DNA of 18,552 nucleotides from Actinomycetes bacterium (lineage in GTDB: Bacteria; Actinomycetota; Actinomycetes; Propionibacteriales; Propionibacteriaceae), in NCBI GenBank assembly GCA_021794705.1, contig JAJYQH010000137.1:1-18552 (forward strand), in the 5' to 3' direction. This document shows positions 2,063-5,464 of the stretch, piece by piece (positions within the stretch are counted from its first letter, which is position 1; each line of letters begins with the position of its first letter). A model generated the notes under the pieces. That model ran no database searches. It was not told where the DNA came from and saw only the letters and a list, made by a program, of their open reading frames with translations. A program made the position numbers and the translations under genes.

Positions 2063-3199
2063 TCAGGCGTAGGTCATCCGCATGGCGGCGCGGACCTCGT
2101 CGAGGGTCGCCTCGGCGACCTCGTTCGCCCGGAGGTTGCCTTCCGCGAGCACATCGCGGAGGTACCCGGGGTCGGCGATGAGCTCGAGGCGCCGCGCGCG
2201 GTGGGGGGCGAAGTAGTCGTTCACCGCGGTGGTGACGAGCTTCTTGAGACCACCACCGCCATCGTCCCCGACCTGCTCGGCGATCTCCTCGGGGGTCCGG
2301 CCGGTGGTGAGCGCGGCCAGGTTGACGAGGTTCGACACCTGCGGCCGGTTGACCGGGTCGAAGGTGATGTGCCGGTCCGAGTCGGTGACGGCCCGCTTGA
2401 GCAGTTTGGCCGTCTCCTCCGCGGTCATCCCGAGGTCGATGGTGTTGCCCCGCGACTTGCTCATCTTCTGGCCGTCGAGACCGAGGATGTTCGCGGCGCC
2501 CCTGCTGAGCAGGGCGTCGGCCTGGGGGAACACCGGGGTCTCGGGCACCGCGCGCCCGTAGCGCTCGTCGAACCGTCGGGCGATCACCCGGGTCTGCTCG
2601 AGGTGGGGAAGCTGGTCCTTGCCGACGGGGACGAGATTCGCCTTGCAGAACAGGATGTCGGCGGCCTGGTGCACGGGGTAGGTGAGCATGAGTCCCGACA
2701 TCGGCCGGTCGCCGGCGGCGTCCAGCTCGCTCTTGACGGTGGGATTGCGCCGCAGCTCGGCGTCGGTGACGACCGACAGGAACGGCAGCATGAGCTGGTT
2801 GAGCGCGGGCACCGAGGAGTGGGTGAAGATCGTCGTGCGCGCGGGATCGATACCGGCGGCCAGGTAGTCGGCGACGAGTGAGAACACCCGGTCGCGGATC
2901 GGTCCGACGCCGTCGCGGTCGGTGATCACCTGGTAGTCGGCGATGACGACGAAGGTCTGGACGCCGGCGTCCTGCAGCCGCACCCGGTTGCGCAGCGAGC
3001 CGAAGTAGTGGCCGATGTGCAGGTTTCCGGTGGGGCGATCGCCGGTGAGGATGCGGTAGCGCTCCGGGTGCACCGCGAGATCGGCCTCGATCTCCTCGCT
3101 GCGGGCCTCGCTGCGGCGCAGCGAGGCGTCGGTGACGGAGTTGGCGAGGTCGTCGCCGGCGTCGCCGGCGACCGTGTCCTCGGGGGCTTCGGTGGTCAT
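2063..3199 (-). CDS. trpS: Tryptophanyl-tRNA synthetase, divergent TrpRS II-like class
   Basis: A class I aminoacyl-tRNA synthetase that charges tRNA-Trp (Trp + ATP + tRNA) in the cytosol. The 378-residue protein has the HIGH signature at 61-64 within LTGDRPTGNLHIGHYFGSL, KMSKS at 245-249, and the Trp-pocket region around 166-200. LTGDRPTG and the C-terminal pattern RRLEL..DP...VRAAMRM match the Deinococcus TrpRS II class, not the common bacterial form with SGIQPTG and LGNYLGA. An acidic N-terminal extension of about 46 residues precedes the core, as in auxiliary TrpRSs. The ATG at 3199 is chosen because AGGAG lies at 3208-3212; the frame stays open upstream to 3343, but that stretch is better explained as a regulatory leader. 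Downstream lies the kinase-like gene. Expression is probably controlled by tandem Trp codons in the leader. I cannot tell whether this is the only TrpRS of the genome. Confidence 0.93.
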   Translation of the reverse strand: MTTEAPEDTVAGDAGDDLANSVTDASLRRSEARSEEIEADLAVHPERYRILTGDRPTGNLHIGHYFGSLRNRVRLQDAGVQTFVVIADYQVITDRDGVGPIRDRVFSLVADYLAAGIDPARTTIFTHSSVPALNQLMLPFLSVVTDAELRRNPTVKSELDAAGDRPMSGLMLTYPVHQAADILFCKANLVPVGKDQLPHLEQTRVIARRFDERYGRAVPETPVFPQADALLSRGAANILGLDGQKMSKSRGNTIDLGMTAEETAKLLKRAVTDSDRHITFDPVNRPQVSNLVNLAALTTGRTPEEIAEQVGDDGGGGLKKLVTTAVNDYFAPHRARRLELIADPGYLRDVLAEGNLRANEVAEATLDEVRAAMRMTYA

Positions 3200-3242
3200 G
3201 CGGGGATCTCCTGCTCTGGGCTGCCGCGCGGCGGACGCACGT

Positions 3243-3314
3243 CGGGCCGCCCCGCGGGCGGCCCGTTGACGTGGAACAGCGTGGGTGTCAGTGCCGCCTG
3301 GTCGGCGGCCACCA
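3243..3314 (-). promoter_or_regulatory. Ribosome-mediated transcription attenuator of trpS
   Basis: Read on the minus strand, three alternative hairpins follow the TGG TGG codons. Segment 1 (GCCGCC, 3309-3304) directly abuts the Trp codons and pairs with segment 2 (GGCGGC, 3298-3293) around a 5-base loop. Segment 2 also pairs with GCCGCC inside segment 3 (3262-3257), extended by TGAC (3290-3287) with GTCA (3270-3267). Segment 3 (CGGGCCGCCC, 3265-3256) pairs perfectly over 10 bp with segment 4 (3252-3243). A ribosome stalled on the Trp codons would mask segment 1, allow 2:3 and let transcription enter trpS. A ribosome reaching the stop would mask segment 2 and allow the 3:4 terminator. No U-run follows the terminator stem, which is common in actinobacteria but weakens the call. 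The trpS ribosome site is not sequestered. Confidence 0.68.
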
Positions 3315-3356
3315 GCAGCGCGACGGCGCCGGCGCATCCTCAACGGGGTGACTCAC
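3288..3356 (-). CDS. trpS leader peptide with tandem Trp codons
   Basis: A 22-codon frame starts with GTG at 3356 and ends with TGA at 3290-3288, 88 bases before the trpS ATG. Codons 15 and 16 are adjacent TGG (3314-3309), followed by Pro-Pro-Thr-Arg-Arg-His and the stop. An in-frame TAG four codons upstream makes this GTG the first possible start. No Shine-Dalgarno is visible. A -10-like TAGCCT ends six bases before the GTG, so the mRNA may be leaderless. Trp is the rarest amino acid, and two in a row in a 22-residue peptide before a Trp-tRNA synthetase is the hallmark of an attenuation leader. The peptide itself probably has no function. A chance match cannot be excluded, but the matching stem-loops downstream argue against it. 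Confidence 0.72.
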   Translation of the reverse strand: MSHPVEDAPAPSRCWWPPTRRH

Positions 3357-3362
3357 GCCGCG

Positions 3363-3368
3363 AGGCTA
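3363..3368 (-). promoter_or_regulatory. Candidate -10 element for the trpS leader
   Basis: TAGCCT on the minus strand fits the actinobacterial TAnnnT pattern. It lies six bases before the leader GTG, so initiation at or beside that G would give a leaderless leader peptide. No clear -35 is visible at 16-18 bases upstream; that region is occupied by a 7-bp inverted repeat (GGCCGCC / GGCGGCC, 3378-3397). Confidence 0.35.
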
Positions 3369-3518: not shown

Positions 3519-4712
3519 GTGCACCTGCTCATCGTGTCCCTGCACACCTCACCCACCGCCCCCCTCGGTACCGGGGACGCCGGAGGGATGAACGCCGTGC
3601 TCCAGGCCCAGGCGCCGGAACTTGCCCGCCTCGGTCACACCGTCGATCTGGTGACCCGGCGCGACTCGGCGAGCGCCGCGGACGCCGAACGGCTCAGCCC
3701 CGGCATCACCCTGCACCGGGTCCCCGCCGGGCCGCCCGCACCGCTGCCGAAGAGCGAGATCGACGAGCATCTCGACGAGTTCCGCGACAACCTCGCCGTG
3801 CTGGGCCTGCGCCCCGACCTCGTCCACTCCCATCACTGGATGAGCGGCGTCGCGGCCCTGCCGCTGGCCCGTGAGTGGGGCGTCCCGCACGTGCAGAGCT
3901 ACCACTCGGTGGCCGCCCTGCCCGGCGCGCCCCTCGCGCACGGTGAGCCCCCGGAGTCCGTCCGGCGGGTTCCCGGCGAACGGCTGATCGCCCGTGAGTC
4001 CGACCTCGTCGTCGCGGTGAGCGAACGCGAGCGCTACACGGTCATCGAGCGGTGCGGGGCGCACCCCGACCGGGTCGTCGTGAACCATCCGGGCGTCGAC
4101 CTCGAGTTGTTCCGCCCGCTGCGGCCCGGGGAGAGTCCGTGGCGTCCCGAGGGGGTGCCGGCCGGGCGCCCGCTCGCCGTGTTCGCGGCCCGGCTGCAGC
4201 CGCTCAAGGCGGCCGACCTCGCCGTCGCCGCCCTCGGCCATATCCCGCCCGAGCGGCGTCCGGTGCTCGCGATCGCGGGCGACGTGTCGGCGGACTTCGC
4301 CGGCTACTGGGCCGAACTCGAGGCGATGATCACCGACCTGGGGCTCGCCGACTCGATCGTCCACATCGGCGCCCAGCCTCGCCCGGACCTCGCGCGCCTG
4401 CTGCGCTCGAGCTCGGCGGTGCTCGTCCCCTCGCATTCGGAGACCTTCGGGCTGATCTCGCTGGAAGGGCAGGCCTCCGGCGTCCCCGTGCTGTCGGCCA
4501 CCTCCGGCGGCCTGCCCGAGGCCATGGGCACGGGCGGTCTCCTCATCGACAGCCGCGAGCCCGCGGTCTGGGGCGCGGAGCTCGACGACGTCCTGTCCAA
4601 CCCCGCGTTCGCCGCCGATCTCGGACGCCGCGGCCGCCGGCACGCCGAGGGGTTCGGCTGGCCGGAGCGGGTGCGCGAGTTGAGCGACATCTACGAGGGG
4701 ATGGTCCGATGA
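3519..4712 (+). CDS. GT4 glycosyltransferase, MshA-like
   Basis: A 397-residue retaining GT-B enzyme. The N-terminal domain opens with LHTSP...GTGDAGGMN (8-25), the signature of MshA, which joins UDP-GlcNAc to inositol 3-phosphate in mycothiol synthesis. The C-terminal domain has RLQPLK (225-230, nucleotide-phosphate Arg and Lys) and the GT4 EX7E motif (E308, E316). Of the inositol-phosphate contacts I recall for Corynebacterium MshA (K78, Y110, T134, R154), Lys is kept (K78), Arg is probably kept (149/150), Thr is replaced by S130 and Tyr by H106. So it may be MshA or a relative using a different acceptor. No signal peptide or membrane helix is seen; it should be cytoplasmic. Its stop overlaps the start of the deacetylase gene (ATGA), so the two are translationally coupled. 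Confidence 0.85.
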   Translation: MHLLIVSLHTSPTAPLGTGDAGGMNAVLQAQAPELARLGHTVDLVTRRDSASAADAERLSPGITLHRVPAGPPAPLPKSEIDEHLDEFRDNLAVLGLRPDLVHSHHWMSGVAALPLAREWGVPHVQSYHSVAALPGAPLAHGEPPESVRRVPGERLIARESDLVVAVSERERYTVIERCGAHPDRVVVNHPGVDLELFRPLRPGESPWRPEGVPAGRPLAVFAARLQPLKAADLAVAALGHIPPERRPVLAIAGDVSADFAGYWAELEAMITDLGLADSIVHIGAQPRPDLARLLRSSSAVLVPSHSETFGLISLEGQASGVPVLSATSGGLPEAMGTGGLLIDSREPAVWGAELDDVLSNPAFAADLGRRGRRHAEGFGWPERVRELSDIYEGMVR

Positions 4713-5464
4713 CGGTGGCGCAGGCCCTGCTGCCCGATCGTCCGCTGCACCGGGCGCTGTTCCTCCACGCGCACCCCGACGACGAGGCGCTGGCCACCGG
4801 GGGGCTGATCGCCACGCTGGCGGCGTCCGGGATCGAGTGCCAGGTGGTGACGTGCACCCGCGGGGAGCGGGGCGAGGTGATCCCCGGCGTCCTCCCCGAC
4901 GACGCCCGCCCCGACGACCTGGTGCGACTGCGGCAGGCGGAACTCGCGGGCTCGTGCGCGGAGCTCGGCGTGTCCCGGCACGCCTACCTCGGCACTCCCC
5001 CCGCCCTCGCCGCCGGCCGGACGCCGCGCACCTACCGTGACTCGGGCATGCGGTGGGTGACCCCGACCCTCGCCGGCCCGTCGCTGGACGCCGGCCCGGA
5101 CGCCCTCACCAGTGCCCCGGCCGCCGAGGCCGTGGCCGACTGCGTCGCCGTGATCGGCGCCTGGGTGCCGGACGTGCTCGTGAGCTACGACCTGGGCGGC
5201 GGGTACGGGCATCCCGACCATGTCCGCACCGCGGAGATCGCGCTGGCCGCCGCCCCGCGGGCCGGCGTCCCGCTCGTCCAGGTGGTCACCGGCACCCCCG
5301 ACGACGCGACGTGGGTCGACGTGTCGGCCCAGCTCTCCCGGGTGCGCCGGGCCCTCGGTCACTACGCCAGCCAGTTGAGCGTGCACGACGACCACGTCGT
5401 GCACGTGGGGGGCCAGCACCAGCCGATCGACGTGCGCACGGGGCTCCGGGCAGTCGTCGCCTGA
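4709..5464 (+). CDS. LmbE/PIG-L family GlcNAc-type deacetylase, MshB-like
   Basis: A 251-residue zinc hydrolase that probably removes the N-acetyl group from a GlcNAc-containing intermediate. HAHPDDE (20-26) gives zinc ligands H22 and D25 and the general base D24; GHPDH (167-171) gives the third ligand H171. TCTRGERGEV (48-57), DSGM (111-114) and YDLGGGYGHPDH (160-171) closely resemble MshB, which deacetylates GlcNAc-inositol in mycothiol synthesis. It is shorter than the roughly 290-300 residues I expect of MshB. The ATG at 4709 overlaps the stop of the upstream glycosyltransferase gene; the frame is open further upstream, but that lies inside the neighbour and lacks family motifs. With the GT it forms a transfer-then-deacetylate pair. 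Mycothiol-conjugate amidase (Mca) is an alternative relative, though Mca is usually longer. Confidence 0.86.
   Translation: MTVAQALLPDRPLHRALFLHAHPDDEALATGGLIATLAASGIECQVVTCTRGERGEVIPGVLPDDARPDDLVRLRQAELAGSCAELGVSRHAYLGTPPALAAGRTPRTYRDSGMRWVTPTLAGPSLDAGPDALTSAPAAEAVADCVAVIGAWVPDVLVSYDLGGGYGHPDHVRTAEIALAAAPRAGVPLVQVVTGTPDDATWVDVSAQLSRVRRALGHYASQLSVHDDHVVHVGGQHQPIDVRTGLRAVVA

Follow-up and report, generated by a model that had tools for sequence, protein, structure and literature searches.

A candidate tryptophan-codon attenuator ahead of the tryptophanyl-tRNA synthetase gene in a genus of the Propionibacteriaceae

The tryptophan–tRNA ligase gene (trpS) of the window, by which we mean the whole 18,552-nucleotide stretch of DNA analyzed here (contig C156, from an assembly rated 60% complete), is preceded by a leader that would very probably act as a ribosome-mediated attenuator, raising TrpRS expression when charged tRNA-Trp is scarce. 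The initial annotation had read the region as a trp attenuator. Conservation of its tandem Trp codons (WW) in relatives, together with covariation of the 3:4 and 2:3 stems, supports that reading at the level of sequence.

Organization of the trpS leader

All elements of the leader lie on the minus strand. trpS, the gene that would be controlled, occupies positions 3199-2063 with its ATG at 3199 (TIGR00233, E 4.4e-66, above cut-off), and its Shine-Dalgarno sequence, AGGAG at 3212-3208, was assigned by eye 30 nt past the 10-bp stem described below. The leader peptide frame, VSHPVEDAPAPSRCWWPPTRRH, was read directly and recomputed; it runs from GTG at 3356-3354 to TGA at 3290-3288, and 88 nt separate its stop from the trpS start. 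A -10-like hexamer, TAGCCT (3368-3363), stands 6 nt ahead of this GTG, with TGG just before it in the style of an extended -10. The frame is short (22 codons) and contains tandem codons for the relevant amino acid, TGG TGG at 3314-3309, which are the putative stalling codons and are kept in relatives.

Four segments complete the leader. Segment 1 (GCCGCC, 3309-3304) overlaps the second TGG, its first base being the last base of that codon, and segment 2 (GGCGGC, 3298-3293) adjoins the leader TGA at a distance of 2 nt. Segments 3 (CGGGCCGCCC, 3265-3256) and 4 (GGGCGGCCCG, 3252-3243) form the left and right arms of a terminator-like stem. Segments 1 and 2, whose starts are 11 bases apart, can pair over 6 bp with a loop of 5 (-13.8 kcal/mol); alternatively, segment 2 can pair with GCCGCC at 3262-3257 inside segment 3 (-10.5 kcal/mol). 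The 3:4 hairpin is a perfect 10 bp with a 3-nt loop, worth -23.8 kcal/mol alone, and in the window its stem is extendable by CACGT/ACGTG across an asymmetric loop to -28.4 kcal/mol. The 22-codon frame with its TGG pair, the 1:2 and 2:3 pairings and the 10-bp stem had all been described before and were all recovered when the sequence was re-read.

Upstream of trpS, and divergent from it, is a plus-strand frame for an MshA-like glycosyltransferase, which ends at 4712 and whose start is not settled. Taken as 3519-4712, it lies side by side with a frame for an MshB-like deacetylase (4712-5464, plus strand); both fall below the NCBIfam cut-offs, and the two may be related to genes of the mycothiol pathway.

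The GC content is 67-75% per kilobase over the window and 74% around the leader. The 170-nt leader folds no better than its dinucleotide shuffles (z -0.66; 45 of 200 did as well), nor does the 2:3 pairing of the window stand out from shuffles (p=0.20); judgement by the fold of the window alone was dropped on these two results. In DNA of 74% GC, chance is not excluded from the window sequence alone, and it is the relatives that decide. Across 53 leaders the 2:3 test reached p<=0.05 in only 18 (median 0.085) when run with automatic terminator picks, and we think that wrong picks account for part of these poor values. Choice by lowest free energy took other hairpins in several leaders, and was replaced by a rule selecting the 10-bp, short-loop stem near the leader stop.

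Conservation of the Trp codons

Two genomes of the same genus, G001 and G002, retain the C-terminus CWWPPxRRH, along with WW, the frame, the position of the stop and segments 1-4. Their leaders end in ...APAPVGCWWPPVRRH (G001) and ...APAPVGCWWPPDRRH (G002), that of the window in ...APAPSRCWWPPTRRH*. The distance from start to WW is 6 nt longer in both than in the window, a multiple of three, which leaves them in frame.

WW leaders were sought in the interval -200 to -60 from the trpS match and compared with 40 rounds of dinucleotide shuffling. The scan covered 137 of the 156 family genomes with a match, one locus from each, and 136 loci remained once L088, at 85 bases too short to use, was set aside; the named set of 80 loci was reduced to 79 by removal of one short locus. 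A short WW frame precedes trpS in 36 of the 136 family loci (shuffled mean 0.75, maximum 3; reverse complement 2) and in 14 of the 79 named loci (0.35 shuffled, maximum 2), the latter number rising to 20 leaders at a limit of -330. Three named loci duplicate family loci, so that 56 leaders represent 53 distinct ones. The leader of L148 (family genome G143) has the same sequence as that of L006 (Propioniciclava flava). No WW leader was present within the scanned interval at 100 of the 136 family loci. Read by eye, some loci lacking WW have a leader with one Trp codon and a comparable stem: L087 (MQRSTDWRSR), L091 (MKHRGSWRRHDGCR) and L211 (MKQRGAWQP).

Covariation of the competing helices

Alignment A1 comprises 43 of the 53 leaders. 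Seven leaders of genus g14 and L165 were left out beforehand, their downstream hairpins being different or unclear, while L077 and L080 were dropped when the alignment was made, since no position could be assigned to segment 2 or to the stem. In A1 the 3:4 helix is paired in 94.8% of cells, against 24-62% in slid registers, and seven of its ten pairs are altered on both sides. Its covariation is 0.381 vs 0.177 for shuffled alignments, and all five measures lie above all 500 shuffles. This covariation supports segments 3 and 4 as arms of one stem.

For the 2:3 helix, which links segments 2 and 3, the figures are 88.3% paired vs 85.4% shuffled, with three of seven pairs altered on both sides, 18 cells altered on both sides vs 5.3, and a covariation of 0.224 vs 0.157. 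Counted by pair types it does not stand out from the shuffles (8 vs 8.3), and its three covarying pairs are reached in 107 of the 500. Segment 3 has a match in segment 2 as well as in segment 4, so the covariation of 2:3 may derive in part from that of 3:4. A 1:2 helix of at least 5 bp is found in 42 of the 43 leaders (mean 6.3 vs 4.9 bp shuffled), and is weak evidence because 61% of shuffles also reach 5 bp. The mutually exclusive helices, the putative antiterminator 2:3 and the terminator-like 3:4, both covary in the alignment, 3:4 strongly and 2:3 more weakly. Conservation of the TGG pair and compensatory changes in the stems, which had been put forward as the check to be made in close relatives, are both present (G001 and G002; the 43 leaders).

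Promoter spacing and start of the leader

Each of the 53 distinct WW leaders has an ATG or GTG in frame with WW and, 6-7 nt ahead of it, a TANNNT hexamer, as compared with 1.7% when the bases upstream of WW were shuffled with start positions fixed. When TANNNT-N6/7-(A/G)TG sites at most 110 nt upstream of WW were searched for with the frame ignored, 53 were in frame and none out of it. TGN directly precedes the hexamer in 25 of the 53, and the same-genus hexamers, TAATCT and TAGTCT, are both 6 nt from the start. By established promoter geometry, a Shine-Dalgarno sequence would not fit ahead of a start codon that follows the -10 element by only 6-7 nt. Because of this spacing the leader mRNA is probably leaderless, and what had earlier been a guess to that effect now has strong support from all 53 leaders. 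The spacing agrees with the leaderless trpL1 (trpE) and trpL2 (trpS) leader transcripts of S. lividans given in the accessible text of PMC8079986, as well as with PMC3848588, whose accessible text describes leaderless mRNA as prevalent in P. acnes. In GC-rich genomes, where hairpins say little, the agreement of spacing and frame offers a rule by which such leaders can be found from sequence.

The region after the stem

In the three genus members the stem is followed by ACGTGCG (the window), ACGCATG and ATGCATG, none with a U-run; the initial annotation had remarked on this lack, and it is borne out. The arrangement of an intrinsic terminator, a stem and then a U-run, is not found in the window. 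Intrinsic termination is uncertain when none of the three genus members has a U-run behind the hairpin, and our claim for the window extends to attenuator-like action and not to the intrinsic-terminator type. Elsewhere in A1, and with the stem-closing U not counted, the 6 nt behind the stem contain at least three U in 21 of the 43 leaders and 0-2 in the other 22.

CATG occurs within a few bases after the terminator stem in 16 of the 43 A1 rows (columns 97-113, counted by eye). These rows (e.g. L083, L084, L005, L048, L064 and L085) come from several named genera and also include rows without a U-run. The window has GTGCG there and no CATG. Some leaders have another CATG ahead of the stem, and the two can pair.

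A different ending is seen in genus g14 of the family, where the last 100 nt before trpS were compared for nine regions (L094, L202, L217, L218, L219, L221, L228, L229 and L230). Here the last hairpin (CCUCGUCG...CGGCGAGG) enters the GAGGAAGGA ribosome-binding region of trpS. Four of the regions were folded, and the hairpin into the Shine-Dalgarno region (GGCGAGGAAGGA) belongs to the best structure of L202, L217 and L229, not to that of L230; the fold z-scores are -0.31, -2.99, -2.14 and -1.38, respectively. WW leaders are present in seven of the nine regions; in L228 TGCTGG replaces TGGTGG, and L221 is without WW. These sequences suggest that g14 may have a translation-level output under the same sensor.

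Occurrence before other genes

A covariance model, R1, was built from A1 and run on 37 genomes. It gave 26 matches at E<=0.01, 24 of them before trpS or trp biosynthesis genes and the remaining two inside other frames (G005:2739691 and G016:157355). The 24 include all 16 matches in three other families, which were obtained in 12 of 16 genomes (G021-G036) contributing no sequence to A1; the eight matches in the family of the window are all leaders of trpS, and most of these had gone into the model itself. Gene identity was established by profile for L241, L242, L243, L247, L249, L252 and L254, and for the others by an adjoining TrpRS match or by eye.

WW leaders of the same build precede trpD (L242, L243, L283 and L284) and TrpE-clade3 genes (L249-L252 and L254), as well as a second, divergent TrpRS in genus g20, whose genomes measure 7.6-8.5 Mb (L245-L248). 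Run on 197 family genomes, R1 had a match in 54; part of the matches were classified, and these include, by profile, trpB of G110 (L278) and the common-type trpS of G153 (L258). Weak matches inside other genes (L285-L288) were judged by eye to be false positives. Among the three genomes of the genus of the window, two of them incomplete, R1 matches trpS only. One TrpRS match each was found in G000 (60% complete), G001 (77%) and G002 (98%), the last of which also has a trpA match, and the controlled trpS appears to be the sole TrpRS.

Proposed mechanism and alternatives

We infer translation of the leader, stalling, the direction of the response and termination of transcription as its output; the steps would be as follows. 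Judging from promoter spacing, transcription would start at the GTG or about a base from it, so the ribosome would load at a bare 5' end. At low Trp-tRNA it would stall on TGG TGG and mask segment 1; segments 2 and 3 would then pair before segment 4 is made, and RNA polymerase would proceed into trpS. With ample Trp-tRNA the ribosome would reach the TGA and mask segment 2, allowing the 10-bp 3:4 hairpin to form and stop expression. An untranslated leader would form 1:2 and 3:4, with expression likewise low. Because 3:4 (-23.8 kcal/mol) far outweighs 2:3 (-10.5 kcal/mol), the antitermination choice would have to be kinetic, made before segment 4 is transcribed. Equilibrium folding was tried for four states, with a ribosome footprint masked or not, and each of them, even when stalled, gave 3:4; this is a caution, though it also marks a limit of such folding.

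T-box control was rejected as a candidate: no Rfam family, T-box included, matched the window at the gathering threshold, and the same held for the sequence upstream of trpS at 20 family loci that lack a WW leader.

If the leader is an attenuator, transcription termination is a reasonably likely output, and it is the weakest step of the scheme because the U-run is missing. The same Trp-codon sensing, compatible with the explanation preferred here, might instead act through Rho, through a hairpin-stabilised pause or through lowered translation of trpS, and we regard such an output as possible if somewhat less than probable. It would fit the missing U-run in the genus of the window and the 0-2 U found in 22 of 43 leaders, and the g14 hairpin, by reaching the Shine-Dalgarno region of trpS, indicates that the output can change within the family. 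Rho was suggested by Seliverstov et al. for terminator-less mycobacterial cys leaders, according to the accessible text of PMC1262725. Against it, 21 of the 43 leaders have at least three U in that 6-nt stretch, the stem aligns across all 43, and the trpS Shine-Dalgarno sequence of the window is 30 nt past the 10-bp stem.

Two further explanations were weighed. A constitutive terminator accompanied by a chance WW frame, leaving trpS not Trp-regulated, draws on the abundance of GC-rich hairpins and short frames in such DNA and on the failure of the single-sequence tests against shuffles; it is nevertheless hardly credible in view of the conservation of WW, the 53:0 agreement in frame, the covariation, and leaders of the same build before trpD, trpE and trpB. 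The leader frame might also serve mainly to raise translation of trpS, with ribosomes reinitiating there; the accessible text of PMC4833913 proposes this for many leaders of actinobacteria, and the 88 nt from leader stop to trpS start would suit it. As reinitiation predicts neither tandem Trp codons nor covarying 2:3 and 3:4 stems, we consider it very unlikely.

Relation to known attenuators

The 1:2 / 2:3 / 3:4 logic and tandem Trp codons of the window are those of the E. coli trp attenuator, which differs in controlling biosynthesis rather than a synthetase, in a leader led by a Shine-Dalgarno sequence and in possessing a U-run. The precedent named in the initial annotation was Streptomyces trpRS1, said to be the gene studied by Vecchione and Sello. 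In the accessible part of that study, an auxiliary, antibiotic-resistant TrpRS gene is under ribosome-mediated transcriptional attenuation (Vecchione and Sello 2010, J Bacteriol 192:3565). The likeness is an attenuator on a TrpRS gene; the window differs in that its enzyme is the only TrpRS found and that the U-run is missing. In five of seven Streptomyces loci, whose TrpRS is 60-64% identical to that of the window, the corresponding position holds a CWWRSS, SWWRSS or SWWRSP leader; no WW leader was seen at L062, which has little upstream sequence, or at L070.

The precedent stands but proves to be wider, extending to predictions of 2005 and to S. lividans trpL1/trpL2. As far as the accessible text of PMC1262725 goes, Seliverstov et al. 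predicted Trp attenuators for the trp operons of Corynebacterium and Streptomyces and for trpS2 of S. avermitilis. The window shares with them a leader with repeated UGG, GC-rich alternative hairpins and complementary gGCC-rGCy-GGCC triples; poly-U follows all the trp terminators in that text, and none follows the stem of the window. The same text reports no Propionibacteriaceae trpS attenuator, though P. acnes was in its genome set. In S. lividans, trpL2 likewise precedes trpS and its hairpins have no uridine-enriched sequence downstream, but it carries a single Trp codon (MMTRTCTQLWRAA) in place of two in tandem (accessible text of PMC8079986). A 2015 work by Korolev et al. on Trp attenuators in Actinobacteria is cited in the accessible text of PMC4833913. 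Our literature search returned no report on Propionibacteriaceae trpS leaders, a weak negative, as subscription papers lay mostly outside its coverage. On its sequence, the leader of the window may be classed as a Trp-codon attenuator of the known actinobacterial kind, set apart by the sole TrpRS and the missing U-run.

Significance

Perhaps, and we put this forward tentatively, the attenuator governs the only, essential TrpRS, with leaderless initiation built in and an output module that is interchangeable under one conserved sensor. If so, the leaderless start would place the ribosome directly behind RNA polymerase, with the decision made within little more than 100 nt, and the interchangeable outputs would be a U-tailed terminator, the U-less hairpin of the genus of the window and the Shine-Dalgarno-reaching hairpin of g14. 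The comparison suggests that sensing stays constant as the output varies, and the role of the U-run may therefore be testable within one family. Trp-codon attenuation of a synthetase gene would thereby extend from an auxiliary Streptomyces enzyme to the apparently sole TrpRS of a genus of the Propionibacteriaceae.
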